From contig NZ_CP018221.1 of the NCBI RefSeq assembly GCF_001890385.1, positions 793,501 to 857,500 of the forward strand: a stretch of 64,000 nucleotides of DNA. The letters run 5' to 3'. The translations under genes and the position numbers were made by a program. Origin of the DNA: Tardibacter chloracetimidivorans. GTDB taxonomy: Bacteria > Pseudomonadota > Alphaproteobacteria > Sphingomonadales > Sphingomonadaceae. Shown here piece after piece: positions 23,326 to 62,691 of this stretch; positions within the stretch are counted from its first letter, which is position 1, and each line of letters begins with the position of its first letter. The notes beneath the pieces were generated by a model. It saw only the letters and a list, made by a program, of their open reading frames with translations, did not search any database and was not told the origin of the DNA.

Positions 23326-23491
23326 CTGCCATCGCGACGAGCCTTATAGCAGCCGTTGGATCGGCGAGATTGCAACACTGTTGATTTCCGTTGAGAGTTG
23401 ACCCGGGAGGGGCATAAATTTCCACTGAGAAGTGACCCATGTTCTGACCTTCCCCCTGGCTGATGCGTCGGGGGACATTGGAGTGATCGAC

Positions 23492-43413: not shown

Positions 43414-43797
43414 TCACAATCGCCCGATCAGCAATTCTCCACCATCATTCTCGCTGATCGGCACGGCAATCAGGCGGTTGTCAACGCATGCGCCCGAAAC
43501 GCACAGACCATCGTCCAGCCGGAATTCGGCGAAATGCCGCGAGCATCGGATGTAGCCGTCGAACACGAACGCGTCCGGCTCATGGTTGAGCGCAAGCGAG
43601 AAATGCGGGCAAAGGTTCAGATATCCGCGAAAGCTCGCCCGCGACCGTACTACGAACATTCTGAATGCACTGCGTCCGCGACCGAATCTGAATTCGCGCG
43701 CCGCCCCGTGGGGGATCGCCGCCGCCGCGCAAAGCGGCGTCCCCACGGCAGGCGCGTTCGGCCGCAGGCTCCAATAATCGCGGTCGTCCGACGACAT
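43414..43797 (-). CDS. stand-alone Rieske [2Fe-2S] ferredoxin
   Basis: The 127-residue product is a single Rieske domain. The cluster ligands are Cys and His in NLCPHFSLAL and in IRCSRHFAEF (CxH...CxxH). It is the last gene of the hydroquinone operon, six bases after the intradiol dioxygenase gene. Small Rieske proteins like this pass electrons to ring hydroxylases or sit as in vivo reactivating ferredoxins beside iron dioxygenases; no partner oxygenase is in the window, so it may serve a hydroxylase elsewhere or keep the iron of the dioxygenase reduced. Confidence 0.85.
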   Translation of the reverse strand: MSSDDRDYWSLRPNAPAVGTPLCAAAAIPHGAAREFRFGRGRSAFRMFVVRSRASFRGYLNLCPHFSLALNHEPDAFVFDGYIRCSRHFAEFRLDDGLCVSGACVDNRLIAVPISENDGGELLIGRL

Positions 43798-43803
43798 CGC
43801 GTT

Positions 43804-44652: not shown

Positions 44653-44653
44653 G

Positions 44654-45718: not shown

Positions 45719-45720
45719 GG

Positions 45721-47309: not shown

Positions 47310-48338
47310 TCAGAATGTTACGGGAACGACCGGCGCCGTGCCGTTAGCAATCATCTCCGGAATCCGGGGCGATCCATTTTCCCACACCAGCAGCATCGAC
47401 CGCTTGGTCGAATAGCCCTGGTGGCGGATATCGGCCGGCATACAGCAGATGTCGCCGGCCCGGGCGAGGACGCGGGCGCGGGGCTTGCCCGTCTCCTTGT
47501 CCTTGACGTCCCAGCTGATCTCGTCCGAAAGCTGCAGGAACCATTCGCAGCGATCATTGCCATGTTCGATCGGAAGCACGAACTCCTCCGATGTCGGGCA
47601 GAAGAGACTGTCGCCTACGACCGAACAGACGCTCGGATTCCAGGTGACGTCCGAACGCGAGAGATAGGCGAACAGATTGAAGGCGCTGACCTCGTTCTCG
47701 AAGCCCGGCTCGACCTCGACGTCGGGAACGTCCTGCGCCACATCGGCGAACTGACGGTTTACGGGGAAGCCCGCTTCGTCGGTGCGCAGCGGCGCGTCGC
47801 CCGGCAGACCGACCATCCGCCGGGCCGCGACGCGCCGACGATCGATAGCCGCGTCATTGTTGCCGTTCTTGCGGCCCCAGGGTTGACCGGTTTCCATCGG
47901 CGCGGCGAACGGATCGAAGTCCTGGTTGGTCCAGTCGCCGAGCAAATCCTTCAGAAGCCCCATCAGCGCATCCGAACGGAACCGCTGCTGATAATCGCGG
48001 CGGGCGTTGCGATAGGCATCGTTGAATGCGCCGGCGAAGAGCGTGACTTCGCCATAATGGTTGATGGTTCCGAAGACGCCGTCGAAGTTCACGACCCCGT
48101 AGAAGAAGCCCCATGACACATCGCGCATCGCCGCCCGCAGAAAGGCATCGACAGGGATGACATGCGTTCCGCCGGGCCAGGATATCCGCGCGAAATACTC
48201 GTCGCGGCGCAGCACGAAGCCGCCCGCGCGAAACGCGCGATATCCGGTTTCATTGCAGATCGGCAGCACCTCCGTATCGGTGCTTGCCGTGGACGCCGGG
48301 TTGGCATTCTCGCGCTCGGATGCTTCGGACATGGCCAT
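47310..48338 (-). CDS. hapD: hydroquinone 1,2-dioxygenase, large subunit
   Basis: The large subunit of the two-component Fe(II) hydroquinone dioxygenase (HapCD / PnpCD type) cleaves hydroquinone to 4-hydroxymuconic semialdehyde. The 342-residue product has the family patterns SWGFFYGVVNFDGVFGTINH and FDPFAAPMETGQPWGRKNG, and a cupin-like C-terminal half with LPIEHGNDRCEWFLQLSDEI and AGDICCMPADIRHQGYSTKR, which hold likely iron-binding histidine and glutamate residues. Size (about 38 kDa) fits. AGGAG precedes the ATG, and the small-subunit gene is 22 bases upstream. Confidence 0.88.
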   Translation of the reverse strand: MAMSEASERENANPASTASTDTEVLPICNETGYRAFRAGGFVLRRDEYFARISWPGGTHVIPVDAFLRAAMRDVSWGFFYGVVNFDGVFGTINHYGEVTLFAGAFNDAYRNARRDYQQRFRSDALMGLLKDLLGDWTNQDFDPFAAPMETGQPWGRKNGNNDAAIDRRRVAARRMVGLPGDAPLRTDEAGFPVNRQFADVAQDVPDVEVEPGFENEVSAFNLFAYLSRSDVTWNPSVCSVVGDSLFCPTSEEFVLPIEHGNDRCEWFLQLSDEISWDVKDKETGKPRARVLARAGDICCMPADIRHQGYSTKRSMLLVWENGSPRIPEMIANGTAPVVPVTF

Positions 48339-48360: not shown

Positions 48361-48873
48361 TCAAACGGACTCGGTCTGGCAGATCGAAGCCCATTTCTGG
48401 ACGGTGACTTCGCCCTCGATCGTCTGAAAAAGGATCACGCCGGGCTGGTCCGCATGAAAGCGATAAGCCGCTCCCGTCGGTAGCGCGGCCATATGCCCGC
48501 GGCCAAGGCTGATACGGCCCATCTTCCGTCCTGGGAGGGTGTCCTCGCCGATGCGGACCGCGCCCTCACTTTCCGGATCGACATAATCCTCCGGCCGATC
48601 CAGCTTGATCAGGTGGACCTCGGTCCTGCCGTCGAGGCAAAGGACGAACTCGTCATGCGCGCAGGTGAACCAGCTGGACGTTCCTTCCGCCCGCGCGGCT
48701 TCGATGACATATTCGAAATTCTTGCCCACCGCGATCCGCTCATAAGGCTCCGCACCCTCGGCGACTTCGAACACGTTTGAGAAGACATAATTGCGCGGAT
48801 CGTCTTCGATGATCTCGACCCCGCCCTTGCGATAGTCCTTCAAACTGCCGAACTGGGTAACAACGCCTTCCAT
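48361..48873 (-). CDS. hapC: hydroquinone 1,2-dioxygenase, small subunit
   Basis: The 170-residue product is about 19 kDa and matches the small subunit of HapCD-type dioxygenases in size, order and sequence style (FGSLKDYRKGGVEIIEDDPR, then EGTSSWFTCAHDEFVLCLDG and GRGHMAALPTGAAYRFHADQ, a cupin-like fold). The ATG at 48873 follows GGGAG; a start 21 bases earlier is less likely. It is the first gene of the six-gene minus-strand operon running to 43414, and a conserved direct-repeat promoter element lies 90-120 bases upstream. Confidence 0.87.
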   Translation of the reverse strand: MEGVVTQFGSLKDYRKGGVEIIEDDPRNYVFSNVFEVAEGAEPYERIAVGKNFEYVIEAARAEGTSSWFTCAHDEFVLCLDGRTEVHLIKLDRPEDYVDPESEGAVRIGEDTLPGRKMGRISLGRGHMAALPTGAAYRFHADQPGVILFQTIEGEVTVQKWASICQTESV

Positions 48874-48935: not shown

Positions 48936-48991
48936 AAGATAGAGTGAGCAGGGCTTGCGGTCCTGCATAAAGCGGACTTTCTTTGGCATAA
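48936..48991 (-). promoter_or_regulatory. GCATAA direct-repeat promoter element, copy a
   Basis: Two GCATAA boxes (48965 and 48986, plus-strand reading) are exactly 21 bases apart. On the minus strand the proximal box abuts an AGGACC -35-like hexamer, followed after 17 bases by TATCTT at 48936-48941. It lies upstream of the hydroquinone dioxygenase operon. The same layout recurs at 49896 and 62524. Confidence 0.65.
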
Positions 48992-49041
48992 TCGCGTGGG
49001 ATGGTTCCTTGCGATGGCCACGCGCATCAACGCGCAAAAAT

Positions 49042-49821
49042 CTAAAGCGCGAAGCCACCATCGCAATGCACGACCTGGCCGGTAACGAACGATGCCCTCG
49101 CCGAGGCCAGGAAGACAACAACCTGAGCGACCTCGGACGCCTGCCCCGCGCGTCCCATCGGCGTCATGCTGGCCGCATTTTCATAGATGAAGGCAGTCGG
49201 CCCCGTCTTGAGGATTTCCGTCATGCCGGCGTCGATCATTCCCGGGCCGACGCCGTTGGCGCGAATGCCCGTCCTTGCTTCCTCGAGCGCGATGTGGCGC
49301 AGCAGGGTCGCAACGGCCGCTTTGGGCGTAGCCGAAAGGCCGTCGTTGCCGAAAGTCCGGTCGATCGCCGCCGTGAGGAGGGCGGTAAGGGAGCCGCCGC
49401 CGCCCTCGCGCAGATAGGCGACGGCGGCCTGCGCGATGTTGAAGAAGCCGATCACGTCGGTATCGATAACCGCGCGGAAGGATTCGAGGCTGAACTCCAC
49501 GACAGGCCCGATCTCCAGAACCAACCCGCCCGCCGAGATGACGCTGTGAATGCGGCCGTGTAGACCGGCCGCCTTTTGCAGAACGTTATCCACCGACTCC
49601 TTGCTTCGAACGTCGCACTGAACGATCTCCGCACTGCCCCCTGCGGCCCTGATCTCGCCCACCACGCCTTCGACATTCTCAGGCCGGGAAAAATAGGTGA
49701 TCATGACAGGCACGCCGCGCTCCGCGAGCAAGCCGGCAATGGCTTGACCAATGCCACCTGAACCACCGAAAACGACGGCACAACCTTGAGGGAACTCGGG
49801 AGTTTCGAGATCAAATTTCAT
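49042..49821 (-). CDS. SDR-fold protein lacking the usual catalytic tyrosine
   Basis: The 259-residue product has the SDR cofactor motif VVFGGSGGIGQAIAGLLA and the C-terminus SFVTGQVVHCDGGFAL, so the fold is clear. The YxxxK site, however, reads SATPK (in GLSATPKAAVATL), with serine in place of tyrosine, and NNAG is replaced by SAGG. It may use another residue, catalyse a non-redox step, or be a poor enzyme. It is a single-gene unit with its own copy of the GCATAA repeat promoter and probably belongs to the same regulon as the hydroquinone operon. Confidence 0.82.
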   Translation of the reverse strand: MKFDLETPEFPQGCAVVFGGSGGIGQAIAGLLAERGVPVMITYFSRPENVEGVVGEIRAAGGSAEIVQCDVRSKESVDNVLQKAAGLHGRIHSVISAGGLVLEIGPVVEFSLESFRAVIDTDVIGFFNIAQAAVAYLREGGGGSLTALLTAAIDRTFGNDGLSATPKAAVATLLRHIALEEARTGIRANGVGPGMIDAGMTEILKTGPTAFIYENAASMTPMGRAGQASEVAQVVVFLASARASFVTGQVVHCDGGFAL

Positions 49822-49866
49822 GGCACCCCACCTCCGTCACATTTCTAACGACGGATTCTTGGGCCT

Positions 49867-49922
49867 ACGATGACAGCGGAGGGATTTTCGATCCTGCATA
49901 AAGCCAACTGTCTGCGGCATAA
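49867..49922 (-). promoter_or_regulatory. GCATAA direct-repeat promoter element, copy b
   Basis: GCATAA boxes at 49896 and 49917 are 21 bases apart. On the minus strand the proximal box abuts AGGATC (-35-like), and a weak -10, CATCGT, follows after 17 bases at 49867-49872. The start of the SDR-fold gene is 46 bases further on. Confidence 0.6.
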
Positions 49923-50064
49923 TCGCAGCACCTACGATGACTTCCGGGATGGTACGCGAGCCCCGGTTCCGTTTCAATGATAGGAGCCCGAATTCGCAGA
50001 AGGCCTCAGGCCTCCGGTGGTTAGGCGACGATGCTATCGAGCGCTCGTGCTCGGTAATGCCATC

Positions 50065-50562
50065 TCAATCGGATATGATGGATTGAAGCGCGACATCGGG
50101 TGTTTTGGCTTCCGCTCCCTCCGGCCCGGAAACCTTGTCGAGAAGCTCGACAAAGATGGCACGCTCCCCCGGCGTCATCGCTACCGTAATTCGATCCTCG
50201 ACCGCATCGACGAGCACAGCTGCACGCTCCATCAAATCTTCACCCGCTTTGGTGAGGCGAATGGCCCGAACGCGGCGGTCCTTGACACTCTGCGTCCGTT
50301 TGATGATTTCGCGCTGCTCCAGTTTGTCCAATATCGTTGTCAGGTTCTGCATCGATATGCCCAGAGCGAGGCTGATGCCCGACTGCTGCGCATCGCCGCC
50401 ACTGATATGCGCAAGCACTGTGAACTCGACAGGCGTGAGGCCAATTTCGGCGGTTCCGGCACGAAAGGCGCGGCGTACGCACAGATACGCCCGTCCTATC
50501 CTGCTCCCGACCAGCGAATTGAACTCGCCGGAGGAATACGCGCCATGCCTTTTCTTGCCCAT
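50065..50562 (-). CDS. MarR-family transcriptional regulator
   Basis: The 165-residue product is a winged-helix MarR regulator. It has the dimerisation helix RAYLCVRRAFRAGTAEIGLT, the recognition helix SLALGISMQNLTTILDKLEQ and the wing IKRTQSVKDRRVRAIRLTKA. MarR proteins bind palindromes as dimers and are released by phenolic ligands, which fits an aromatic pathway. It is divergent from the Baeyer-Villiger gene and is the only regulator within the catabolic cluster, so it is the best candidate for the ATTGACAAT palindromes. That pairing is inference. Confidence 0.92.
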   Translation of the reverse strand: MGKKRHGAYSSGEFNSLVGSRIGRAYLCVRRAFRAGTAEIGLTPVEFTVLAHISGGDAQQSGISLALGISMQNLTTILDKLEQREIIKRTQSVKDRRVRAIRLTKAGEDLMERAAVLVDAVEDRITVAMTPGERAIFVELLDKVSGPEGAEAKTPDVALQSIISD

Positions 50563-50910
50563 TCAACCTCAACAATATCAAGCGCCCGCCACTATATTGG
50601 CGGATTCGCGCAACTTCAAACGCAGAGCGGATCAACCCTATTCAGCCAGGCCAAATTGTAAACTAAAGTTTGTACTCCGGTGGTCGATTGAACGATAACT
50701 TCATGCTTGGCATTCCGATTCCGTCTCGGAAATCGGAGGGCAGCAGCCACCATCGCAGCCGCCATAGTAGTAACAGAGATTGACAATAGATTCGCCAAAC
50801 TTTAGGCAGCACAAACCGGCAAACGGCGCAAAAAGCTAAACGGGCAGTAAGATTCCTGGCGTCGGCGCACATGGTATTCGGTGGCTGGAACCGCGGTTTG
50901 GAGAGATGGA
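50563..50910. other. divergent regulatory gap, marR / BVMO
   Basis: These 348 bases have no convincing gene. They hold operator site 3 at 50779 and the ribosome site of the monooxygenase gene. Confidence 0.6.
50779..50808 (+). promoter_or_regulatory. promoter with palindromic operator site 3
   Basis: The palindrome ATTGACAAT (50779-50787) contains a perfect TTGACA -35 box (50780-50785). TAGGCA follows at 17 bases (50803-50808) as a weak -10. It points to the monooxygenase-lactonase-reductase-pca genes. The core equals that of operator sites 1 and 2. Confidence 0.55.
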
Positions 50911-52740
50911 ATGGAAGAGGTCAGTGCGGAAGTGCGGCAACTGGTCGGTCAGCTCGACTTCGATCAGGCAGAGCTGGCGCGCCGTTATGCCTATGAACGG
51001 GACGTTCGTTTGCGCCCCGACCGTAACAATCAGTATATCGAGACGGAGAAGGAATTCTCCCATTATGCCGACGACCCTTATGCAGAGCCCCTTGTCCGGG
51101 CCGCGGTCGAAGGTCACACCGATGTTATCGTGGTCGGCGGCGGGATCGGCGGACTTGTGACAGCCTCCTATCTTCATGACGCCGGTGTCGACGACGTCCG
51201 GATCATCGAAAAGGGCGGCGACTTCGGCGGGACCTGGTACTGGAATCGCTATCCCGGCCTGCGGTGCGACGTCGAATCCTATGTCTACATGCCGCTGCTG
51301 GAGCGCTTCGGGGGCTTCCCCACCGAAAAGTACAGCAGGGGTTCGGAGATTCTCGACCATCTGCGCAAGATCGCGCGGAAGCTCAACCTGTACGACAAGG
51401 CACTGCTGCAGACCCAGGTCATGGGCCTGAAATGGGACAAGGACGCGGCACTGTGGCGCGTCGAGACCGATCGCGGCGACAAGGTCACCGCCAAGTTCGT
51501 CATCATGGCCAATGGCCTGCTCGTGAAGCCCAAGCTGCCGGGCATTCCCGGCATCGAAGATTTCAAGGGTCACACCTTCCACACCAGCCGTTGGGACTAT
51601 GACTATACCGGCGGCAGCCAGAACAGCGCGCTGGTGAACCTGGCCGACAAACGGGTGGGAATTGTCGGCACGGGCGCCACGGCGGTTCAGGTCGTGCCCG
51701 AGGTCGGCTCGGTCGCGAAGGAACTCTACGTCTTTCAGCGGACGCCCGCCGCGGTCGATTACCGCTATAATAGGCCGACGGACGTTGCCTGGGCCGGAAA
51801 CCTGGCTCCTGGCTGGCAGGACGACAGGGTGGTCAATTTCCACGCCGTCGCCGGGGGGCTCATCGACGGCCCCGATCTGGTGAAGGACGGTTGGACCGAA
51901 ATCGGCAAGCTGCAGGATTCGACTGCCAGCTGGGCAGCGAAGAAGATTGGCCGCCCGCTCAACAGCGCAGAGGCGGAATTCGTCACCAACGCGCTGGACG
52001 ATCTAAAGATGAACCATCTGCGCGCCCGTATCGACGCGGAGGTAAAGGATCCGGCAACGGCAGAGGCGCTCAAGCCATGGCATCGTCGCTGGTGCAAGCG
52101 GCCTTCGTTCAGCGATGAATATCTGCAGACCTTCAATCGGCCCAACGTCTCGATCGTCGATACCGCCGGCAAGGGCATCGAGCGGATGACGGCGAACGGC
52201 GTCGTCGCCGGCGGCAAGGAATATGAGCTCGACTGCCTGATCTTCGCGACCGGCTATGAGGTCGGCACCGAATATACCCGCCGGGCCGGCTATGACGTCA
52301 TCGGCCGTGACGGCGTGGAGCTGGGCCAATATTGGCATAATGGGATGCGGACCTATCAAGGCATTTTCATTCACGGCTTCCCGAACCTGTTCATGTGCGG
52401 TTGGGGACAGAGCGCCGGCACTTTTTCGGTCACGTTCATGCTGTCCGAGCAGGCGAAGCATATCGCATTCGTCCTGAAGACCTGTCTTGATCGCGGGCTG
52501 CGCACAGTCGAGCCCTCTGCGGAAGCCGTCGAGGACTATGTCCTGAGCGTGCGCCCGCTATCGATCAGCCAGCGGAAGTTCTGGCAGGATTGCACACCGA
52601 GCTATTTCACGACGGAAGGCGATACCGCCAATCCTCACGGCATGTTTGCGAACATTCCGCCCGTGGGACCGATCCAATTTTACCAGGATCTGGAAGCGTG
52701 GCGCGCCCGAGGCGACCTGAAAGGCCTTGAGCTTGCCTAA
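50911..52740 (+). CDS. type I Baeyer-Villiger monooxygenase
   Basis: This flavoenzyme inserts oxygen next to a ketone to give an ester or lactone, using FAD and NADPH. The 609-residue product starts at ATG 50911 (GGAGAG upstream). It has an N-terminal extension of about 75 residues ([20 protein letters not shown]), then the FAD motif [20 protein letters not shown] with [19 protein letters not shown], the BVMO fingerprint [12 protein letters not shown], and the NADPH motif [13 protein letters not shown]. The extension and the [13 protein letters not shown] form recall the cyclopentadecanone / steroid monooxygenase subgroup, which accepts bulky cyclic ketones. It heads a plus-strand run of catabolic genes. 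Confidence 0.93.
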
Positions 52741-52813
52741 GTCCGCAGTTCGGAGCGGCCAGGGGCTGCAGGGCGGCGGCTTCGACTGTCGACATGATCA
52801 GGGTGAAAGGACT

Positions 52814-53710
52814 ATGATGGCCGAGGAATGCAAGATTGTCGCTAGTGGCTTTCGCTTCAACGAATGCCCCAGATGGCATGATGGCGCGCTCTATCTCGTC
52901 GATATGTATGATCGACGCGTCTGCCGCATGGACAGCGATGGTCAGGTTAATACCGTCGTCGAACTGGAACATCCCGGCGGCCTTGGCTGGTTGCCGGACG
53001 GCAACCTGCTGGTCGTTGCCTCGCACGACTGCAAGGTCCTCCGCTATGACGGGCATGGCTTGCACGAACATGCCGATCTGACCGGCCAAGGCCTGGTCAT
53101 GGTCAACGACATGGTCGTCGGCAAATCGGGCAATGCCTATGCCGGCGGGCTCGGCGCCGGCTTTGCGGACGGGCTGCTGCCACCCATCCCAATCTTTCAC
53201 ATCACGGCGGACGGCAAGGTCCGCCCTGTTGCCGAAGGGCTCTACGGCCCCAATGGCATGGTGATCACCCCCGACGGCAAGACGCTGATCGTGGCCGAAA
53301 GTTTTGCGAGCCGACTGACAGCTTTCGACATCGCCGGTGACGGCAGCTTATCGAACAGGCGGACGTGGGCGTCCCTCGGCGGCGGTGAGATCAGCTCGGT
53401 GGAGGCTCTGCTGGAGAAAGACTTCGTGATCCCCGACGGCATTGCTCTCGACGCCGAAGGCGCCGTCTGGGTAGCGGACGCGCGCGGCGGCGGCGCTTTG
53501 CGCGTCGCAGAGGGTGGCCAAATCCTGGAGCGGCGCTCCTTCGGTTCCGATACCGCTGTTGCCGTCGCACTGGGCGGACAGGACGGACGGACGCTTTATG
53601 CGATGGCCGGCCCACCCTTTCACAAGATGGCTGAAATTTTCGGCTCGACCGATCGGCTTTATTCCATCCGGACCTGCGCGGTCGATGTTGCCGGGGTGGA
53701 GGTATATTGA
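52814..53710 (+). CDS. SMP-30/gluconolactonase-family hydrolase
   Basis: The 298-residue product is a six-bladed beta-propeller of the SMP-30 / gluconolactonase / LRE family, metal-dependent lactonases. Typical features are FNECPRWHDGALYLVDMYDR (metal-binding glutamate region), HPGGLGWLPDGNLLVVASHD, VNDMVVGKSGNAYAGGL (asparagine and aspartate ligands), GPNGMVITPDGKTLIVAESF and IPDGIALDAEGAVWVADARG. Placed right after a Baeyer-Villiger monooxygenase, it most likely hydrolyses the lactone or ester product; this is a context inference. Two adjacent ATG codons (52814, 52817) can serve as start. Confidence 0.88.
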   Translation: MMAEECKIVASGFRFNECPRWHDGALYLVDMYDRRVCRMDSDGQVNTVVELEHPGGLGWLPDGNLLVVASHDCKVLRYDGHGLHEHADLTGQGLVMVNDMVVGKSGNAYAGGLGAGFADGLLPPIPIFHITADGKVRPVAEGLYGPNGMVITPDGKTLIVAESFASRLTAFDIAGDGSLSNRRTWASLGGGEISSVEALLEKDFVIPDGIALDAEGAVWVADARGGGALRVAEGGQILERRSFGSDTAVAVALGGQDGRTLYAMAGPPFHKMAEIFGSTDRLYSIRTCAVDVAGVEVY

Positions 53711-53807
53711 TCGACCGGTCGCGGCTTGGCGCGCGCCCGGAGTCCAACCCATCGAGCAAAGCACCGATCTGGCGCGAAAGCGTGATCGGCACACGCGAAG
53801 GAAGTTC

Positions 53808-54881
53808 ATGCAGACTTACGAAGGAAAGGCTATCGTCCTGGCATCCAGGCCGACGGGCAAACCCGCCCCCGACAACTTTCGCGTGGAAGATATCGCGATT
53901 TCGCACGTTCCCGACGGGAAGGTCCTGATCCAGAATCTGTGGCTGTCGATCGAGCCCTATATGATGCTGAGCATGAAGGGCTCGATCCCGATGTCGCAGC
54001 GGGTCCACGCCAACCGGCTCAACCGGCTGTCGGACCTCTATGTTAGCGGCGTCGATATCGGACAGGTCATGTGCGGCCCCACGATCGCGCGCATCCTGGT
54101 GTCGAAGCGGGATGATTTCCGTGCCGGCGACATGGTCGTGGCCTATGGCGGCTGGCAGGACATCCTCATCGACGACGGGAGCGCCCTGCTCAGGATCGAT
54201 CCCTCGGCCGGTCATGTGACGGCACAGCTGGGCGTGCTGGGGATCCCGGGATTCACCGCTTATGGCGCCATGCGGGAAATCGCACAGCCGAAGGCCGGCG
54301 AGACGGTCGTCGTGTCGGCAGCCTTCGGTCCGGTGGGCTCGGTCGCCGGGCAGATGGCGCGGCTGGCCGGTGCGCGAAGCGTGGGGATCGCGAGCGGCCC
54401 GGACAAATGCCGCCGGCTCGTGACGGACCTTGGCTTCGATGTCGCACTCGACCGTCTGGTGCCGGATTTCGCCGCGCAGCTCGCCGAGGCCTGCCCAAAC
54501 GGCATCGACGTCTATTTCGAGAATGTCGGCGGCATGATCTGGTGGACCGTGTTGCCCTTACTCAACGAACGCGCGCGCATCCCGCTCTGCGGGCTCGTGT
54601 CGCGATATGCATCGGACGGCGTCGATGACGGCATCGACCGTAGCATGGAGGTGATTGAGGCGATCCAATATAAGCGCCTGCTGATCCGCGGCGTGTCCGT
54701 CTTCGACTATGTGCCCCTGGAGGCGGACTTCTATCGCGAGATGGCTGGCTGGGTGGAGCGTGGCGATATCCGGTATGTCGAGGATGTCGCGGAAGGTCTC
54801 GCATCGGCGCCGCAGGCACTGATTGACGTGCTGAAGGGCCGCAACAACGGCAAGATGCTGGTCCGGCTGGGGCGCCGATGA
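53808..54881 (+). CDS. zinc-independent MDR-family NADP-dependent reductase
   Basis: The 357-residue product is a medium-chain reductase of the leukotriene B4 dehydrogenase / curcumin reductase type, which reduces alpha,beta-unsaturated ketones with NADPH. It shows LWLSIEPYMMLSMKG near the N-terminus, LGIPGFTAYGAMREI, the nucleotide motif SAAFGPVGSVAGQMARLAGA and the family-typical GIDVYFENVGG. No zinc ligands are seen. AAGGAAG precedes the ATG. It may reduce an enone intermediate in the pathway before or after ring cleavage. Confidence 0.9.
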   Translation: MQTYEGKAIVLASRPTGKPAPDNFRVEDIAISHVPDGKVLIQNLWLSIEPYMMLSMKGSIPMSQRVHANRLNRLSDLYVSGVDIGQVMCGPTIARILVSKRDDFRAGDMVVAYGGWQDILIDDGSALLRIDPSAGHVTAQLGVLGIPGFTAYGAMREIAQPKAGETVVVSAAFGPVGSVAGQMARLAGARSVGIASGPDKCRRLVTDLGFDVALDRLVPDFAAQLAEACPNGIDVYFENVGGMIWWTVLPLLNERARIPLCGLVSRYASDGVDDGIDRSMEVIEAIQYKRLLIRGVSVFDYVPLEADFYREMAGWVERGDIRYVEDVAEGLASAPQALIDVLKGRNNGKMLVRLGRR

Positions 54882-54936
54882 AACGTCTGGGCGCTATGCA
54901 TGCCGCGCATCGGCAGAATGCGGGGAAAGCCCGCAT

Positions 54937-55638
54937 ATGATCGACAAAGCCTCTTCCTCGCCCAAGATCGCGGTGGGAGATATCCGTGATGGCGCGTCGA
55001 TCATGATCGGTGGCTTCGGCACCGCGGGCATGCCGGACGAGCTGATCGAAGGGCTCATCGCCGGCGGCGCCCGCAACCTGACCATCATCAGCAATAATGC
55101 CGGAAATGGCGAGACCGGCGTAGCCGCCCTGATCAAGGAGGGCCGCGTGAGCAAGATCGTCTGTTCCTTCCCGCGGCAGTCCGACTCGCACCATTTCGAT
55201 GCCGCATACCGCGCAGGCCAGATCGAACTCGAACTCGTCCCGCAGGGGAATCTCGCGGCGCGCATTCAGGCCGCCGGCGCCGGCCTCGGCGCGATCTTCA
55301 CCCCTACCGGCTTCGGCACCCTGCTCGCCGAGGGCAAGGAAACACGCCGCATCAATGACCGCGATTACGTCATGGAATATCCGATCCATGCGGATTTCGC
55401 ACTCATCAAGGCGCTCAAGGGCGACAGGTGGGGCAACCTCGTCTATCGCAAGACCGCGCGCAATTTTGGCCCGATCATGGCCATGGCCGCCAGGACGACC
55501 ATAGCCCAAGTCGAAGAGCTGGTCCCCCTTGGCGCGCTCGATCCCGAGGTCGTCGTGACGCCGGGCATCTTCGTTCAGCGCGTCGTCCGGATCACCCATG
55601 TCGCTGCAGCCGAAGCGCGGTTGGGAGAGGCGACATGA
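54937..55638 (+). CDS. pcaI: 3-oxoadipate CoA-transferase, subunit A
   Basis: Together with subunit B it transfers CoA from succinyl-CoA to 3-oxoadipate. The 233-residue product has the CoA-transferase alpha signature MIGGFGTAGMPDELIEGLIA, then LTIISNNAGNGETGVAALIK, LVPQGNLAARIQAAGAGLGA and FTPTGFGTLLAEGKE. Related acetoacetate transferases (ScoA, AtoD) are close in sequence; the neighbouring thiolase and maleylacetate reductase favour the 3-oxoadipate role. The stop overlaps the pcaJ start. Confidence 0.88.
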   Translation: MIDKASSSPKIAVGDIRDGASIMIGGFGTAGMPDELIEGLIAGGARNLTIISNNAGNGETGVAALIKEGRVSKIVCSFPRQSDSHHFDAAYRAGQIELELVPQGNLAARIQAAGAGLGAIFTPTGFGTLLAEGKETRRINDRDYVMEYPIHADFALIKALKGDRWGNLVYRKTARNFGPIMAMAARTTIAQVEELVPLGALDPEVVVTPGIFVQRVVRITHVAAAEARLGEAT

Positions 55639-56273
55639 ACCGGCTGGACCGTAAACAGATGGCCGCGCGCGTAGCGCAGGACATCCCGGAAGGGGCTTAT
55701 GTCAATCTCGGCATCGGCCTTCCGACGATGATCGCCAACTTTCTGCCGGCCGATCGTGAAATCCTACTTCAGAGCGAAAATGGTCTTCTCGGGATGGGGC
55801 CCGCCCCGTCACCGGGCGACGAGGATTGGGAGCTTATCAATGCCGGAAAGCAGGCGGTGACGCTGCTGGCCGGCGGCTCCTTCTTTCATCATGGCGACAG
55901 TTTCGCGATGATGCGCGGCGGCCATATCGACATTTGCGTCCTGGGCGCGTTCCAAGTTTCCATTCTCGGCGATATCGCCAACTGGCATAGCGGGGCGCCC
56001 GGCGCGATCCCGGCCGTGGGTGGGGCGATGGATCTGGCCATCGGCGCCAAGCAAACCTTCGTGATGATGGATCTGCTGACCAAGCAGGGGCAGAGCAAGC
56101 TCGTGCCGTCATGCTCGCTTCCCCTGACCGGCCTTGGCTGCGTCTCCCGCCTCTATACCGATGTCGCCGTGTTCAATCTTGGGCCCGAGGGTGTTCGCGT
56201 CGTCGAAACCGTCGACGGGGTCACGATCGACATGCTGCGTAACCTGACGGGCATAGCCCTTGTGAGCCAGTGA
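55635..56273 (+). CDS. pcaJ: 3-oxoadipate CoA-transferase, subunit B
   Basis: The 212-residue beta subunit starts at ATG 55635 (ATGA overlap with pcaI). It has YVNLGIGLPTMIANFLPAD and the catalytic glutamate in LLQSENGLLGMGPAPSPGDE, followed by GGHIDICVLGAFQVSILGDI. Both subunits are full length, so the enzyme should be functional. The thiolase gene follows after 56 bases. Confidence 0.88.
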   Translation: MNRLDRKQMAARVAQDIPEGAYVNLGIGLPTMIANFLPADREILLQSENGLLGMGPAPSPGDEDWELINAGKQAVTLLAGGSFFHHGDSFAMMRGGHIDICVLGAFQVSILGDIANWHSGAPGAIPAVGGAMDLAIGAKQTFVMMDLLTKQGQSKLVPSCSLPLTGLGCVSRLYTDVAVFNLGPEGVRVVETVDGVTIDMLRNLTGIALVSQ

Positions 56274-56329
56274 GCGTTCCGCCAGAGGCCTGAGAAACGC
56301 ATCGATATCCATCGGAAGGTCAAAAAAAT

Positions 56330-57538
56330 ATGAGCGATGCCTATATCTGCGACGCCATCCGCACGTCGATCGGGCGATATGGCGGTGGCCTGGCTAACCT
56401 TCGCGCGGACGATCTGGGCGCGCTGCCGCTGAAAGCGATGCTGCAGCGCAATCCGGGGCTTGATCCGGCGGCGGTCGAAGAGGTGTTTTTCGGCTGCGCC
56501 AACCAGGCCGGCGAAGACAATCGCAACGTTGCGCGCATGAGCCTATTGCTCGCCGGGCTGCCGCACAGCGTCCCCGGCGTTACGCTCAATCGCCTATGTG
56601 CTTCGGGCCTGGAAGCGATCGGCGCGGCCGCGCGCGCCATCGGATCCGACGAGATGGCGCTCGCCTTCGCCGGTGGCGTCGAAAATATGACGAGAGCTCC
56701 CTTCGTCATGGGCAAAACCGCGCAGCGCTTCGGTCGCGATCAGAAGATCGAAGACACTACGATGGGCTGGCGCTTTATCAATCCCGCCCTCGATGCGGCC
56801 GTCGGCACGGAAACGATGCCCCGGACGGGCGAAAATGTCGCCGCCGCCTATGGCATCAGCCGCGCCGATCAGGACGCCTTCGCGCTGCGCAGCCACGAGC
56901 GCGCGCTGGTCGCCCAGCGAAGCGGCTTTCATGCCGAAGAAATCCTCCCCCTGAGCGTGCCTTCGGGCAAGCGGGGCGAGGCAACCCTTTTCGGCATGGA
57001 CGAGGGCCCGCGCGCGGACACGACCCTGGAAGCGCTACAAAAGCTGAAGCCGCTTTTTGGCGCGGATGCGACCGTGACCGCCGGCAACGCCTCGAGCATC
57101 AACGACGGCGCGGCCGCGCTGATCGTCGCGAGCGAAGCAGCTGCCAGGGATCATGGGCTGACGCCGCGGGCGCGAATCCTCGGCATGGCGGCGATCGGGG
57201 TCGAGCCACGCATCATGGGTATCGGCCCGGTGCCCGCCACGCAGAAACTCATGGCCCGCCTCAATCTAAAAATCGACGATTTCGATGCGATCGAACTCAA
57301 TGAGGCGTTCGCCAGCCAGGCCCTCGCGGTCTTGCGCGCCCTGGGCCTTCACGACGACGCACCGCATGTGAACGCCAATGGCGGCGCGATCGCGCTCGGT
57401 CATCCGCTTGGCATGTCCGGTGCCCGCCTGGCCCTGACGCTGGTCCACCAGCTCGAGAAGACCGGAGGAAGGCTCGGCCTCGCCACGCTCTGCGTCGGCG
57501 TCGGCATGGGCCTAGCCCTCGCGGTCGAGCGCGTTTGA
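56330..57538 (+). CDS. pcaF: 3-oxoadipyl-CoA thiolase
   Basis: The thiolase splits 3-oxoadipyl-CoA into succinyl-CoA and acetyl-CoA. The 402-residue product carries the PcaF-type stretch CANQAGEDNRNVARMSLLLA, the nucleophile cysteine in LNRLCASGLEAIG, the histidine in GGAIALGHPLGMSGARLALT and the second cysteine in LCVGVGMGLALAVE. GENVAAAYGISRADQDAFAL is also typical of the family. This is the last gene of the plus-strand run and completes the route to the TCA cycle. Confidence 0.92.
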   Translation: MSDAYICDAIRTSIGRYGGGLANLRADDLGALPLKAMLQRNPGLDPAAVEEVFFGCANQAGEDNRNVARMSLLLAGLPHSVPGVTLNRLCASGLEAIGAAARAIGSDEMALAFAGGVENMTRAPFVMGKTAQRFGRDQKIEDTTMGWRFINPALDAAVGTETMPRTGENVAAAYGISRADQDAFALRSHERALVAQRSGFHAEEILPLSVPSGKRGEATLFGMDEGPRADTTLEALQKLKPLFGADATVTAGNASSINDGAAALIVASEAAARDHGLTPRARILGMAAIGVEPRIMGIGPVPATQKLMARLNLKIDDFDAIELNEAFASQALAVLRALGLHDDAPHVNANGGAIALGHPLGMSGARLALTLVHQLEKTGGRLGLATLCVGVGMGLALAVERV

Positions 57539-57549
57539 TGGGGCATGTT

Positions 57550-57578
57550 GGCCGACCGTCGCCCAGCGATGGTCGGTC
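57550..57578. terminator. bidirectional hairpin between pcaF and TonB receptor
   Basis: A 13-bp stem (GGCCGACCGTCGC with GCGATGGTCGGTC, including two G-T wobbles) and a 3-base loop lie between the convergent stop codons of pcaF and the first TonB receptor gene. Confidence 0.7.
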
Positions 57579-57583
57579 GGATA

Positions 57584-60004
57584 CTAGAATTTGAAACGGG
57601 CCTCGATCGTGAAGGTGCGCGGCTCACCGGGGACCAGGGTGTTGAGCTGGTAGCTCTCGCCCGTCGCCACGCCACCGACATAATAGATTTTGTCGAAGGC
57701 GTTTTTAAGATTCGCCGTGAGCGACCAGCCCGCGGAATCATTTTGAAGGCCCAGCCGGAAGTTCGCGGTCGTGTAGGACGGAATGATCGATCCAGCGCTG
57801 TTCAGGCTGCGCGGGCTCGTGAAGTTCGACGACTGCCGATAGACATCGCCGTGCACCAGAAACGAGAGTTCGGCCGATAGCGGGATCGTCACGTCGGCAT
57901 AGGCTACGCCCGAGAATTTCGGGGTGTCGGCGACCCGGTCATAGACCACGGGCAGTCCGTTGGCATTCACGTTGCCATCGACGAATTTTGATTTGGTCAG
58001 ATTGACGTTGCCGCCGAGGAAGAGCCAAGGCGTCGGCTGGATCGAACCGTCTAGCTCCAGACCATATACCTCGGCCTTCGGCACATTGACGGTGAGCACC
58101 GCTGGTCCGCCGCCGACGAACGTATAGGCCGCCCTCTGGTTGTTGCTGATCCAATTGTAGAAGAAGGCGGCGTTAAGACGCGTTCGCACGTCGCCAAGCT
58201 CGCCGTTGAACTTGGTACCGAGCTCCGCATCTATGATTTTCTCGGCGCCATAGCTGTCGCCGCCCTGAACTCCCTGTCCATCGAGAGGCGGCAGAAGCAG
58301 GTTGTATCCGCCGCTTTTATAGGCGCGCCGGGAAGCGGCATAGACGAGCAGCGTCGGATCGACCTGATGTTGGAGGCCGAGCGTCCAGCTCAATTTGTTG
58401 TAGGTCGCCGACTTATTATAATCATAGCCGGCGGGCGCCGGATCGCCGAGGGCGATACGCGAACTGTTGGTCGGAAGCGTGACGCGCGTCACCTTCTCGC
58501 TGGTGTAGCGAAACCCGGCGGTCGCCGAGAGACCCGTATCGGTCAGCTTGAACGAACCCTGGGCATAGCCGGCATAAGTGAAGTTTTTGACGGTGTTATC
58601 CAGATGCTGCAGGAAGCCGCCAAACAGAATGTCGAGAGAATTATTGGTGAGGCGCTGAGTGGTTTTCTCGTCCGAGAAATAGCCGCCGATCGTATAATCG
58701 AGACGATCCGACAGCGCCGTACCCTGCAATTGCAGTTCGTCGGAAATCTGGCGCGTGAAGTTACAAATGCACTCGCCGACCCTTTGGCCGGATACCAGAA
58801 AGGGGAAGCCATCCGCGTCGTTGCCGTAATTCTCGCGAATGCGGGTATAACCGAGGATATTCTTCAGCCGCGCGGTGCCACCGAGCTCCACGGTCGTCGC
58901 GTTGGTCACGATCAGATTCTTAGTGAGATGGAAATTAGCCCCATCGTCGTTCACCACATAGGGGCCGCGGGCCAGCTGCGCGGCAAGTTCGTCGCGGGCA
59001 CTGTTCGCATGCCGGGGATCGGCGAAATAGGTATCGTAGAAGGGCGCGACCACCGATGCCGGAGCACCCGTAAAGGCCGAAATCGTGCCGATGCCCGTGG
59101 CTCTGGCAGTGGGCGTCCCGACGCCGGCATAGAGCAACTCCAGTGGAACGAGCGGAGTCGGGCCTCCGGTCAGCGGTAACAGGCCGCTGACGGTGCCGAG
59201 CATATTCTCGCCCTTGTCGTGAAAATAATCGACGACGAGTTCGTTTTTGATCGAGCCGAGATTGACCGTGACGCTGCCGCGCCCGCCATAGCGTTCGAAG
59301 TCGCCGATGCGACGGCCGCCATAATAGAGATTCTTCTGAAAACCATGACGGCGCTGGAATATGCCGGCCAGACGAGCGGTCAGCGCGTCGCCTGCAATTG
59401 GCCCGCTGATAGCGCCTTCGATCTTCCGCGCGCCATGGTCGCCCGCAAGGGCGCTGGCATAGCCCGACAGCGTTTCGGTCGGCTTAGCCGTCGTGAACAG
59501 AACCGCGCCACCTGTCGCGCTGCGCCCGAACAACGTGCCCTGAGGGCCCTTGAGCACTTGGACGGACTGAAGGTCGTAGAAGGCGGTCGCGGACCCCTGC
59601 CCGCCGATCTGCACCTCATTGATATAGGGCAGCACGCCGGGGCGGGAGTTGCTGTACGCATCCTGCGACTGGCCGCGGATGGAATAGTTGAGCGATGTGG
59701 CAGACAGGCCGGCGCGCACTGTTAGGCCGGGAGCGACAAAGCGAAGATCCTGCTCGGACCCGACCTGCGCCTTGGCGAGGGTGTCCGCCGAGATCACAGC
59801 GACGGAGACGGGAGTCTTCGACAGGCTCTCGTCACGACGGCGGGCCGTCACGACGATGTCGCCCACTTCTGTTTCCGCCCCCGGAGCCGTTCCCCGCGCG
59901 GCCTCGGAAGGGACTATATGCGCAGCCGTCTGGGCTAAGGCGATATCGGGAGCGAGCAAAGCAGTGCCAAGAGCGGTCGTGACCGCAAGCTGCCTTTTTA
60001 ACAT
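57584..60004 (-). CDS. TonB-dependent outer-membrane receptor
   Basis: The 806-residue product starts at ATG 60004 (TTGGAG upstream) with a signal peptide ending in DIALAQ. The plug domain has GDIVVTARRRDESLSKTPVS, then KGPQGTLFGRSATGGAVLFT, and the 22-stranded barrel ends in the usual aromatic terminus FTIEARFKF. Sphingomonads use many such receptors for uptake of poorly soluble aromatics and other nutrients; the position beside catabolic genes suggests substrate import. It is transcribed separately from the next receptor gene, with a strong hairpin between them. Confidence 0.93.
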   Translation of the reverse strand: MLKRQLAVTTALGTALLAPDIALAQTAAHIVPSEAARGTAPGAETEVGDIVVTARRRDESLSKTPVSVAVISADTLAKAQVGSEQDLRFVAPGLTVRAGLSATSLNYSIRGQSQDAYSNSRPGVLPYINEVQIGGQGSATAFYDLQSVQVLKGPQGTLFGRSATGGAVLFTTAKPTETLSGYASALAGDHGARKIEGAISGPIAGDALTARLAGIFQRRHGFQKNLYYGGRRIGDFERYGGRGSVTVNLGSIKNELVVDYFHDKGENMLGTVSGLLPLTGGPTPLVPLELLYAGVGTPTARATGIGTISAFTGAPASVVAPFYDTYFADPRHANSARDELAAQLARGPYVVNDDGANFHLTKNLIVTNATTVELGGTARLKNILGYTRIRENYGNDADGFPFLVSGQRVGECICNFTRQISDELQLQGTALSDRLDYTIGGYFSDEKTTQRLTNNSLDILFGGFLQHLDNTVKNFTYAGYAQGSFKLTDTGLSATAGFRYTSEKVTRVTLPTNSSRIALGDPAPAGYDYNKSATYNKLSWTLGLQHQVDPTLLVYAASRRAYKSGGYNLLLPPLDGQGVQGGDSYGAEKIIDAELGTKFNGELGDVRTRLNAAFFYNWISNNQRAAYTFVGGGPAVLTVNVPKAEVYGLELDGSIQPTPWLFLGGNVNLTKSKFVDGNVNANGLPVVYDRVADTPKFSGVAYADVTIPLSAELSFLVHGDVYRQSSNFTSPRSLNSAGSIIPSYTTANFRLGLQNDSAGWSLTANLKNAFDKIYYVGGVATGESYQLNTLVPGEPRTFTIEARFKF

Positions 60005-60118
60005 TGGAATCTCCAATTTTATTTCATTCGACAGCCCAGAGCTCTTGGGGTCGTGACGACGCCGTCGTGACAACCGAAGAGTTAGCGTCTGCTCCCTTGT
60101 CCGGCCGAACACCGACAG

Positions 60119-60174
60119 GCGAGCCAGTCAGTCCGAGGGCGACGCGGCGTCGCATATCGGACTGACTGGCTCGC
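60119..60174. terminator. nested hairpin between the two TonB receptor genes
   Basis: A perfect 18-bp stem, GCGAGCCAGTCAGTCCGA at 60119 with its complement at 60157, encloses a loop that contains a second perfect palindrome, GCGACGC-G-GCGTCGC. It begins just past the stop of the upstream receptor gene (60177) and should end that transcript. Confidence 0.75.
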
Positions 60175-60176
60175 TG

Positions 60177-62399
60177 TCAGAATTTATAGGAAGCCGAGAT
60201 GCCGTAGACCGCCGGCTGCCCGTAATTCTGCGCGATCGAGAAATTGACCGGCGTCAGCTGGTTCACATATTTCTTGTCGGTCACGTTCGTCCCGTACACG
60301 GCAAAGGAAGTATGCCCGTCCGGCAGAGTATATCCAACGCGCAGATTCAACAGGCCATAAGCGCCCTGCCCGAACTGCTCCGCCGGATCGAAAAAGATCT
60401 TCGAGGTGCGGTAGTAATTGGCCGAGAACGCGATCTCACCGCCGGCCAGGGGCCGCGTATAGTTGACGGTCACGTTGCCGCTGAATTTCGGCGAACGCGG
60501 CATCGTGAAACCGCTCGCATCGATCGGCGTCGTGATGAACAGGCCGAAAAACGCTCCGCAGGACACGAGGTCGAGACATTGAACCTGGGCCGGGGCACCC
60601 AAGAACTTCTTGAACCGCGCATGGGTGTAGGCGCCCGCGACCCTGATCTCGAGCCCCTCGACCGGATTGACCGACACGTCGCCTTCGACGCCGTACACTT
60701 CCGCCCGCGCGGCATTCTTCAACGTCACGGTCGTCGACGTGTAGGAGGCGAGCTGAAGGTTGGTATAATCGTAATAATAGCCGGCCGTGCTGAAGCGCAC
60801 GTTGCGTGACGCCGTCTTAAATCCGACCTCATAGGCCGTCAGTTTCTCAGGCTTGACCGGCGTGGTGAGGTCGATCGAGAAGGTGTTGAACGCGCCCGAT
60901 TTGAAGCCCTTCGAGAAGGACGCGTAGACGCTAGTGCGAGGCGCGAGCTCGTAGCGGATGACCGCGCGCGGCGTCAGACTGTTGAAGGTCTTCGACGCGC
61001 TGTCATTGGCGCCGGGCGTGCCGAACGCCGTGCTCTGGACCAGATAGTCCGCCAAGCGCTTCTCGCTGCTGTACCGAAGACCACCGGTCAGAAACAACTT
61101 GTCGGCCAGTTCGTAGGTCGCATCTCCAAAAAAGGCGAAGGATTTGCTTGTCTGCTGGTGAACGAGCCCGAGCGCAAGGGGCGCACCGGCATAGAATTGC
61201 TGAGCATCCTTATCATAGAAATAGTTGGCGCCCAGCACCCAGCTCAATCGACGCGATGTATCTTGGGGCGACGTCAGGACGAATTCCTGGGACGCTGACT
61301 TCTGTTGATTGCGGTATAAAACGTTGAACACGCTGGCGCTTGCCGCATCGTTGTCGTTGGCTGACAGCGTCCTCTGATCGCGATACATCGAGTAGGAGGT
61401 CAGCTTCCCAAAGCCTAAATCCGTGTCGGCCGTGAGGTAGGCACCGTCGACATTGAGCTTGAATCTAGGATCGTAGTCCGACGAAATATCGCCGCGCTTC
61501 GATGCGATCACCGATCCCGGAATGAAGGCGTCGATGGTTAGACCCTGATAGGCATTATACATCGCGGACGTCGGATCGCTGACATCCGTATGCTGGTAGC
61601 TCAGCATGACATCGGTCGCGTCGGAGACCTCCCACAATATCTTGGACTTGAAGCTCAGGCTGTGGAATTTGCCCGGATTGTCGTCGCCGGTGAAGATATT
61701 CTTGTAGAAGTTGTCGCCGCGCTCATAAGCTGCCGTGATGCTCACGGCCACCTTCTCGGTCAGACCGGTCGACAGGAAGCCACCGACGCTCGGATGGTTG
61801 AAGCGTTCGTAGCTCGCCATGATGTTGCCGGTCGTCTGAAAGGTTGGCTTCTTGGTCGTCACCAGGATGGCCCCGCCGGTCGCATTGCGGCCGAACAGCG
61901 TACCCTGGGGGCCTTTCAGCACGCTGACATTGTCGACATCTAGCAGTTTGAAGTCGGTGCTGAACGGACTCGAAATATAGAAGCCGTCGACATAGGTCGC
62001 GATGTTCGAGTTCAGGCCGGGGCCGACCGCAGCGGTGCCGACGCCGCGGATGGTCGGCTGGGCGAAGCTGGCCGAATAATCGAAGCGCAGGCCGGGCACG
62101 ACCTGGGCCAGCTGACCCGTGCTGGTGACCGACGATTTGGCGAGCCCGCCGCCGCCGATCGACGTGATCGCGATCGGAACAGCCTCGAGCGATTCCGCGC
62201 GACGCTGGGCGGTCACGACGATCTCGCCGACATCCGCATTGTCGCCGGCCGCCGCAGCGGCGGCCGGCGATGCCGCGGCATCACTTTGCATGGCAGCGAA
62301 AGCGGTTCCTGAAGATGCCGCGAAAAGTGCCAGCGCAGAAGCTCCCAAGGCATAAGGACGCCCGATTCTCGCCAGCATGAAGCCGCTATAGAAGTTCAT
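60177..62399 (-). CDS. TonB-dependent outer-membrane receptor
   Basis: The 740-residue product starts at ATG 62399 after GGGGGAGGAG. It has a signal peptide (ALGASALALFAASSGTAFA), the TonB-box-like segment VGEIVVTAQRRAESLEAVPI, the plug motif LKGPQGTLFGRNATGGAILV and a C-terminal barrel ending in YGISASYKF. It is related to, but not a close copy of, the receptor at 57584. A copy of the GCATAA direct-repeat promoter lies about 100-150 bases upstream, so it is probably co-regulated with the hydroquinone operon. Confidence 0.94.
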   Translation of the reverse strand: MNFYSGFMLARIGRPYALGASALALFAASSGTAFAAMQSDAAASPAAAAAAGDNADVGEIVVTAQRRAESLEAVPIAITSIGGGGLAKSSVTSTGQLAQVVPGLRFDYSASFAQPTIRGVGTAAVGPGLNSNIATYVDGFYISSPFSTDFKLLDVDNVSVLKGPQGTLFGRNATGGAILVTTKKPTFQTTGNIMASYERFNHPSVGGFLSTGLTEKVAVSITAAYERGDNFYKNIFTGDDNPGKFHSLSFKSKILWEVSDATDVMLSYQHTDVSDPTSAMYNAYQGLTIDAFIPGSVIASKRGDISSDYDPRFKLNVDGAYLTADTDLGFGKLTSYSMYRDQRTLSANDNDAASASVFNVLYRNQQKSASQEFVLTSPQDTSRRLSWVLGANYFYDKDAQQFYAGAPLALGLVHQQTSKSFAFFGDATYELADKLFLTGGLRYSSEKRLADYLVQSTAFGTPGANDSASKTFNSLTPRAVIRYELAPRTSVYASFSKGFKSGAFNTFSIDLTTPVKPEKLTAYEVGFKTASRNVRFSTAGYYYDYTNLQLASYTSTTVTLKNAARAEVYGVEGDVSVNPVEGLEIRVAGAYTHARFKKFLGAPAQVQCLDLVSCGAFFGLFITTPIDASGFTMPRSPKFSGNVTVNYTRPLAGGEIAFSANYYRTSKIFFDPAEQFGQGAYGLLNLRVGYTLPDGHTSFAVYGTNVTDKKYVNQLTPVNFSIAQNYGQPAVYGISASYKF

Positions 62400-62494
62400 T
62401 TCACTCCTCCCCCACTTTTGTTCTTTGGATCATCGATGTGATTGCTGTGCTAAGAAAACCAGGAATCAAATAACCAACTCACTACGCCTATTGC

Positions 62495-62550
62495 ACCATG
62501 CGGGCGAACCCGCCGACCGTCCTGCACAAATCCAACTTTCTTCGGCATAA
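62495..62550 (-). promoter_or_regulatory. GCATAA direct-repeat promoter element, copy c
   Basis: GCACAA at 62524 and GCATAA at 62545 are 21 bases apart, in the same layout as copies a and b. On the minus strand AGGACG follows the proximal box directly and CATGGT follows after 17 bases (62495-62500). It is upstream of the second TonB receptor gene. Confidence 0.6.
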
Positions 62551-62691
62551 TCGCACAGTGAAAGCCATTGGCCTTGGCTGGCGAGCGGCGAATCCCCGGT
62601 AGTTCCCGCGTGATGCCGAACTCGACCAGCGGCCGGTCGCATAGCCCGACATGTCGGAGGCTCCGTAACGCTTGAGGTCAGGCGATTCTCC

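Follow-up and report, generated by a model that had tools for sequence, protein, structure and literature searches.

Three transcription units on the minus strand of a 64,000-nucleotide stretch of the Tardibacter chloracetimidivorans genome (C1:793501-857500, hereafter the window) are each preceded by the same direct repeat, which raises the question of what regulator, if any, reads it. An earlier note on this DNA had described the repeat as two GCATAA-like boxes with a 21-bp period, compared it with AraC/XylS activator sites, and proposed an undescribed regulon, its regulator missing, that couples substrate import to ring cleavage. The best reading of the sequences is a small, local HqdR regulon of XylS-like design. 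The three elements are very probably operators at which an AraC/XylS-family activator, the HqdR orthologue encoded at C1:857864-859066, binds as a dimer. Its targets in this genome would be three units: a ring-cleavage operon, an SDR gene, and one or two TonB-dependent receptor genes. The putative operators are:

48961..48993, minus strand: operator 1, the 33-mer GATTATGCC...TTTATGCAGGA, 5' of the hqdAB operon
49892..49924, minus strand: operator 2, 70 bases 5' of the SDR gene 49042-49821
62520..62552, minus strand: operator 3, 120 bases 5' of the TonB-dependent receptor gene 60177-62399

Operator 1 lies 90 bases from the ATG at 48870 and 66 from an alternative ATG at 48894. On re-reading, the coordinates, boxes, spacing and spacer words first given for the three repeats were all correct. 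The bare six-base direct repeat alone is not unusual and would be unconvincing: GCATAA-N15-GCATAA with up to two mismatches has five window matches against 1.9 expected, a number reached by 7 of 100 shuffles. The longer common element is far beyond chance. The 32-bp pattern TGCAYAAANNNNACTNTCTNNGGCATAATCGC occurs with no mismatch at 48964-48995, 49895-49926 and 62523-62554, has no further window match at up to three mismatches, and is matched in none of 100 shuffles of the window. A 28-base core, at up to three mismatches, occurs three times in the 3.79-Mb genome (five contigs), each time inside the window (reversed control, 0). A genome-wide model search gave three strong matches among the 150 candidates scored of 3054 (E 6.6e-7 to 2.9e-4; the next, 0.17), 150 being the most that such searches scored in any genome. 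The check for copies at random places in the genome, suggested with the first description, was run and did not refute the reading, the core and the strong model matches being confined to the three sites. Compared in pairs, the 33-mers share 28-29 of 33 positions but their 60-base flanks only 12-21 of 60; since the flanks are unrelated, the elements are not duplicated promoters or copies of one upstream region.

The repeat unit proved to be longer than six bases. It reads YRTGCMGRA, twice, 21 bp apart and toward the genes, and in the window sites 21 is the best lag (6.3 of 9, with a mean over lags of 2.3). Alignment of the three window sites with ten from relatives, described below, gives toward the gene a consensus of roughly YRTGCCGAAGCACGCTGnnTTYGTGCAGGA. 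The window sites are an A/T-richer version of it, and operator 3 is the closest of them to the relatives' consensus. TGCAGG of the proximal unit is invariant across the 13 aligned sites, and between the boxes A11 and G16 are kept in all 13. The -10-like boxes of the first description are present at all three operators, although two of them are weak:

48936..48941, minus strand: -10-like hexamer TATCTT of operator 1, its first base 19 bases after ...TGCAGGA
49867..49872, minus strand: -10-like hexamer CATCGT of operator 2, offset 19, weak
62495..62500, minus strand: -10-like hexamer CATGGT of operator 3, offset 19, weak

A YAnnnT hexamer starts 19 bases past the element in seven of the 13 sites and 20 bases past it in three more. 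None of 20,000 shuffles reaches seven at any offset from 12 to 24, and the strict TAnnnT is found in four of the 13 (P 5e-5). With the hexamer at offset 19-20 in ten of 13 sites, a -35 hexamer at 17-18-bp spacing would include the AGGA bases. The earlier note had an AGGA-type -35 hexamer abutting the proximal box; the AGGA was confirmed, but because the repeat unit is longer than six bases it is also the end of the proximal repeat, which overlaps the -35 rather than abutting it. A class II-type AraC/XylS operator consists of two direct repeats spaced by about two helical turns, of which the proximal overlaps the -35. This is the arrangement seen here relative to the predicted -35, and the sequences support the activator-site reading as that of a putative site overlapping the -35 at three promoters.

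The regulator was reported as missing because the window ends too early. About 360 bases past its right end, on the minus strand, lies an AraC-family gene (C1:857864-859066); the 20 kb to the right of the window carry on that strand a SnoaL-like gene and then this gene. The product matches PF12833 (E 7.5e-24, residues 319-396), an AraC helix-turn-helix (HTH) pair, and so has the C-terminal domain of about 100 residues with two HTHs that marks the AraC/XylS family. It is the best match among the nine PF12833 genes of the genome, and a profile of six orthologues matches the DNA-binding domains of AdpA, RamA, MarA and AraC in the PDB. The open frame has 400 codons; to judge from the shorter orthologues, translation may begin some 60-100 codons into it. 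The N-terminus, where members of the family carry a beta-barrel domain for effector binding and dimerisation, has no Pfam match. In an AlphaFold model of the L010 orthologue (mean pLDDT 88, pTM 0.60), nine strands precede the first long helix; the predicted fold is a beta-domain followed by two HTHs, nearest in the PDB to AraC-family proteins. The top Foldseek matches of this model are full-length AraC-family proteins (best E 1.0e-10, with a TM of only about 0.35 over the whole chain), and a lower-ranked one is the sensor domain of BgaR (TMt 0.69). In the second HTH, which includes GF-x-x-QEH-x-TR, the named residues are unchanged in nine of nine aligned sequences (N. capsulatum not included), a constancy that fits the invariance of TGCAGG. 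Identity as AndR (NCBIfam NF041686) was rejected, the score being 53.8 bits against a curated cut-off of 350.

In Sphingobium cloacae the orthologue (64% identity over 313 amino acids by tblastn; 67% over 288) lies directly 5' of hqdA on a linear record, and the accessible text of PMC5146444 places hqdRAB on a linear plasmid in that species. Since this gene order agrees with hqdRAB, the S. cloacae gene is taken to be the published hqdR (PMC5146444, PMC6308004, as far as their accessible text goes). On identity and gene position, C1:857864-859066 is taken as the HqdR orthologue.

From these data we infer binding by a dimer, activation rather than repression, the inducer and the receptor cargo. 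Each monomer would sit on one YRTGCMGRA copy together with bases in between, the copies being 21 bp, or two helical turns, apart. A -10 at 19 bases with a standard 17-bp spacer would place the -35 hexamer at AGGANN; the proximal copy would then overlap it by the four bases AGGA, and the distal copy would lie two turns upstream. The bound dimer would touch RNA polymerase and turn on a promoter with a poor -35, probably in response to hydroquinone or to a compound that precedes it in the pathway encoded by the cluster. Operator 1 would thereby serve the hqd operon, operator 2 the SDR gene, and operator 3 the first TonB receptor gene and probably a second.

Relatives were collected by a scan for the hydroquinone dioxygenase large subunit (17 named loci) and by a plasmid search (20 records, of which S. 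cloacae pSCLO_6 and Novosphingobium humi were taken). Their sites were found by scanning with the window consensus and by reading the 200 bases before hqdA in 17 loci; the scans left out L001-L003 and L027, which are copies of window stretches. The 21-bp layout precedes hqdA in N. capsulatum, Sphingomonas sp. PP-F2F-A104-K0414, Novosphingobium sp. SG751A, a Caulobacteraceae metagenome-assembled genome, S. cloacae and N. humi, and also in Novosphingobium sp. Rr 2-17, where the distal copy is decayed. A second N. humi site is oriented divergently to the regulator gene. S. mali has two sites, one before a receptor gene and one before a broken hqdA copy. At L008:4794-7451 in S. mali, what comes after the hqdA promoter is an N-terminal piece of hqdA that runs, by eye, into a beta-glucosidase-like frame; an intact hqdA further on has no site before it, and an insertion has apparently separated operator from operon.

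A regulator orthologue (E <=1e-40) was found, in one copy each, in ten of the 20 genomes or records, this genome included. Nine of these ten carriers have the element (one weakly), and the tenth, L015, has a variant. No site was found in any of the eight orthologue-free loci whose hqdA upstream region is readable; L016 and L021, likewise free of the orthologue, have an unreadable region and stand outside the site count. In L010, L011, L012, L014, L015 and L025 the regulator gene is directly 5' of hqdA, with the site (in L015 the variant) between both genes, and in N. capsulatum, S. mali and N. humi it lies 3-10 kb away. In eight of nine genomes or records of relatives, model searches gave one or two sites (E <=0.013), none of them more than about 7 kb from the hqd genes. 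Weak matches (E >=0.066), in this genome as in the others, were not counted as sites; a second L014 match at about 11320 (E 0.066) was dropped, scoring below 8 in the 33-column matrix.

A matrix built from the three window sites alone offers a test free of circularity. In eight loci with a regulator orthologue and an uninterrupted hqdA upstream region, it ranks the place before hqdA first of the locus in six (L009-L012, L014, L025) and second in L026, after that locus's other site, and in L015, where the score is at background level. In the eight orthologue-free loci the best place before hqdA ranks 8th to 643rd. In L008 of S. mali, in which hqdA has been separated from its promoter, the two sites take ranks 1 and 2. 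With matrices that leave out the own locus, the hqdA site is first in seven of the eight loci, L015 missing at rank 30; the L009 hqdA site is second in its locus by simple count and first by matrix.

Relatives of hqdA (E <=1e-20) occur in 13 of 397 genomes, and only this genome and G499 exceed 47% identity. Twelve short loci from other hqdA-bearing genomes gave no matrix match above 11; regulators were looked for in the G499 stretch only, where the 18 kb read hold hqdAB but neither regulator nor site. In G676 a regulator relative 41-42% identical stands directly before a maleylacetate reductase gene, with no hqdAB relative and no site in the 19 kb read (L088, G676:C1:544000-563000); it is possibly a sister regulator of a hydroxyquinol pathway. 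A pattern scan of 396 genomes of the order, this one included, gave at up to two mismatches three matches outside this genome (reversed control, 1). All three were taken as chance, among them that of G177 (matrix score 18.4, CATAGT at 19 bases), the one match whose surroundings were read and which adjoins, by eye, a CTP-synthase-like gene.

The sites, their rarity, their conservation, the near-fixed -10 spacing and the co-occurrence with the regulator are evident from the sequences themselves. A matrix from the ten relatives' sites also speaks for the reading, ranking the window sites 1-3 of 127,936 (38.9, 26.7 and 25.1 bits; next 12.9), and the relatives' sites also have 21 as their best lag (5.9 of 9). 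Several points nevertheless weigh against an HqdR regulon. The last two results are partly circular because the relatives' sites were first picked with the 21-bp window consensus. The site counts are not independent, two of the 13 being identical 33-mers and all being related, and the YAnnnT statistic overstates independence because the sites are related by descent. The co-occurrence is partly shared ancestry, as eight of the ten carriers are sphingomonads. The variant of L015 has a 22-bp spacing. L012, with a decayed distal copy, is top of its own locus, yet its leave-one-out score of 12.7-14.1 falls inside the background range elsewhere (up to 17.5 and 18.4). The XylS/CphR repeat TGCA-N6-GGNTA is not found, the conserved columns being YRTGCMGRA. 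The regulator's own surroundings hold no strong site (best score 10.7, in L004). The genome has eight further PF12833 genes, and the candidate is singled out among them by proximity and orthology. The model searches scored no more than 150 candidates in any genome, out of 3054 in this one.

The alternative that survives best leaves the regulator in place and makes it chiefly a repressor, or a dual regulator that forms loops from site to site. In the absence of inducer, AraC itself is a repressor (PMC4225500, in its accessible text), and three sites inside 13.6 kb could pair. The overlap with the -35, together with weak -35 and -10 boxes, fits an activator-dependent promoter instead, and six of the nine relatives searched gave a single site (E <=0.013), hence no partner for looping, S. 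mali and N. humi having two and L015 none. This role is unlikely.

Still less probable is that the MarR-family gene 50065-50562 encodes the regulator, as a repressor reading sites 1 and 3 as well. This gene, on the strand of operator 2 and 140 bases away from it, encodes MarR domains (PF12802, E 1.2e-10), and aromatic catabolism is often under the control of MarR regulators. The sites of such regulators are as a rule palindromes, whereas the element is a direct repeat at a near-fixed distance from the -10, and no relative of this gene above 35% identity at E 1e-15 was seen in the relatives' loci that were compared. A MarR regulator was rejected as the leading explanation because no MarR relative accompanies the element in those loci.

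The two TTATGC-like boxes might also be the -35 and -10 of a core promoter for an alternative sigma factor, which their fixed spacing and orientation to the genes would suit. This is very improbable, as the bases between the boxes (A11 and G16) are also kept, a separate -10-like box follows 19-20 bases further on in ten of 13 sites, only three strong copies were found in the genome among the 150 candidates scored of 3054, and the element tracks the AraC gene. That the element is an unselected common relic, for example copied by recombination between island promoters, is hardly credible: all three copies do fall within a single stretch bounded by two identical IS21-like copies, but their flanks are unrelated and the layout is kept in other genera.

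The genes that HqdR would control through the three operators form a plausible set:

48361..48870, minus strand: hqdA, hydroquinone 1,2-dioxygenase small subunit, 70-76% identical to hqdA of seven sphingomonad loci
47310..48338, minus strand: hqdB, hydroquinone 1,2-dioxygenase large subunit (PF18191, E 2.9e-52)
43414..47211, minus strand: remaining operon genes after hqdAB, the four that follow
45721-47211, minus strand: aldehyde dehydrogenase, operon of operator 1
44654-45718, minus strand: maleylacetate reductase, operon of operator 1
43804-44682, minus strand: intradiol dioxygenase, operon of operator 1
43414-43797, minus strand: Rieske-type (ferredoxin) protein, assigned by its place and its resemblance to the annotated gene order of S. 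cloacae
49042..49821, minus strand: SDR-family oxidoreductase without the catalytic Tyr, under operator 2
60177..62399, minus strand: TonB-dependent receptor (PF00593, PF07715), under operator 3
57584..60112, minus strand: second TonB-dependent receptor, 64 bases 3' of the first

The hqdA product has no Pfam match of its own. From hqdA to the Rieske-type gene the gaps are 22, 98, 2, -29 and 6 bases, and the operon presumably takes hydroquinone toward 3-oxoadipate by the established pathway. In the translated SDR, LSATPK stands in place of YxxxK. The second receptor gene, judging from the 64-base gap, is probably co-transcribed with the first. Between these units, the MarR gene is divergent from a Baeyer-Villiger-type monooxygenase gene (50881-52740; NCBIfam PtlE-like, 723 bits, under the cut-off of 1100); the two are perhaps a local regulator pair apart from the HqdR sites.

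The proposed coupling of import to cleavage holds at the level of common sites only. Joint control of uptake is supported by the site in S. mali that precedes an unrelated TonB receptor gene: that receptor, under a strong site, and the receptor under operator 3 are 26% identical, which suggests that different receptors have been placed under an HqdR operator. Before a third receptor gene, in N. humi, there is a weak likeness (score 18.2, TAG at 19 bases, against 18.4 for the chance match of G177), and in N. capsulatum no clear site precedes a receptor gene that shares 66% identity with the N. humi one; both findings speak against a general coupling of receptors.

Two IS21-like istA/istB stretches, at 23432-25781 of the window and at L004:10972-13321 (C1:867972-870321), are identical over 2350 of 2350 bases and inverted relative to each other; the catabolic genes, the hqdR orthologue among them, lie between the two. 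Regulator, sites, import and ring cleavage would form an island between two identical insertion sequence (IS) copies, and sensing, uptake and cleavage of a phenolic might have been acquired in one event. It is a tentative idea, slightly less likely than not, that HqdR-type operators act as a portable switch into which lineages plug different receptors, the regulon travelling as a self-contained island. Some 8 kb from one IS21 copy the window encodes a LuxR protein (33603-34364) with an autoinducer-binding domain (PF03472, E 2.6e-25), and a similar-looking frame, judged by eye, lies near the other copy (L004:14851-15603). To the left of the catabolic genes, IS elements interrupt a set of genes (9261-31008) that by eye resemble those of a conjugative type IV secretion system.

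The mechanism itself is a familiar one. The regulon is not undescribed in the sense that its regulator is already named hqdR in the accessible text of PMC5146444 and PMC6308004, which report an hqdRAB-orf1-orf2-hqdCDEF cluster in S. cloacae JCM 10874, S. amiense and Sphingomonas sp. TTNP3; the claim stands for the sites, as no description of an HqdR binding site, or of a receptor in the HqdR regulon, was found in the open-licence literature. S. cloacae shares hqdA (76% identical), hqdB (80%), the regulator (64-67%) and the 21-bp element, there between hqdR and hqdA. Here, in contrast, about 15.5 kb separate hqdA from the regulator gene, which lies on the far side of the receptor genes; the SDR and TonB receptor promoters carry the element too, whereas one site was found on pSCLO_6. 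XylS at Pm of the TOL plasmid, in the accessible text of PMC4225500 and PMC5481539, is likewise an AraC/XylS-family regulator with two direct repeats, the proximal overlapping the -35, by two bases according to PMC4225500. The present sites differ in having YRTGCMGRA rather than TGCA-N6-GGNTA and a predicted -35 overlap of four bases rather than two. The conserved boxes also lie about 10 bases nearer the -10 than in Pm.

CphR of Rhodococcus YH-5B (PMC6205950, in its accessible text) is a further AraC-type activator of a phenolic pathway, with two imperfect direct repeats 5' of the start; unlike here, these are TGCA-N6-GGNTA repeats and the enzymes are others (4-chlorophenol monooxygenase). As proposed here for HqdR, a single regulator, PheR of Sphingobium SHPJ-2, affects TonB receptors and aromatic catabolism in a sphingomonad, but the accessible text of PMC13273656 has it as an IclR-family repressor, its effect on receptors coming from transcriptomics of a deletion strain. 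PnpR and PnpM of Pseudomonas WBC-3 also regulate a hydroquinone pathway operon and, unlike HqdR, belong to the LysR family (PMC5603801, in its accessible text).

HqdR, named and, as far as the open-licence literature goes, uncharacterised, would gain from this study a putative 33-bp operator that is conserved across genera, and three target promoters. It would also provide, at the level of sequence, an example from a sphingomonad in which a single activator connects an outer-membrane receptor with aromatic ring cleavage. Sphingomonads have many TonB receptors, most of them with unknown cargoes; a common operator may offer a direct way to suggest the substrate class of such a receptor.

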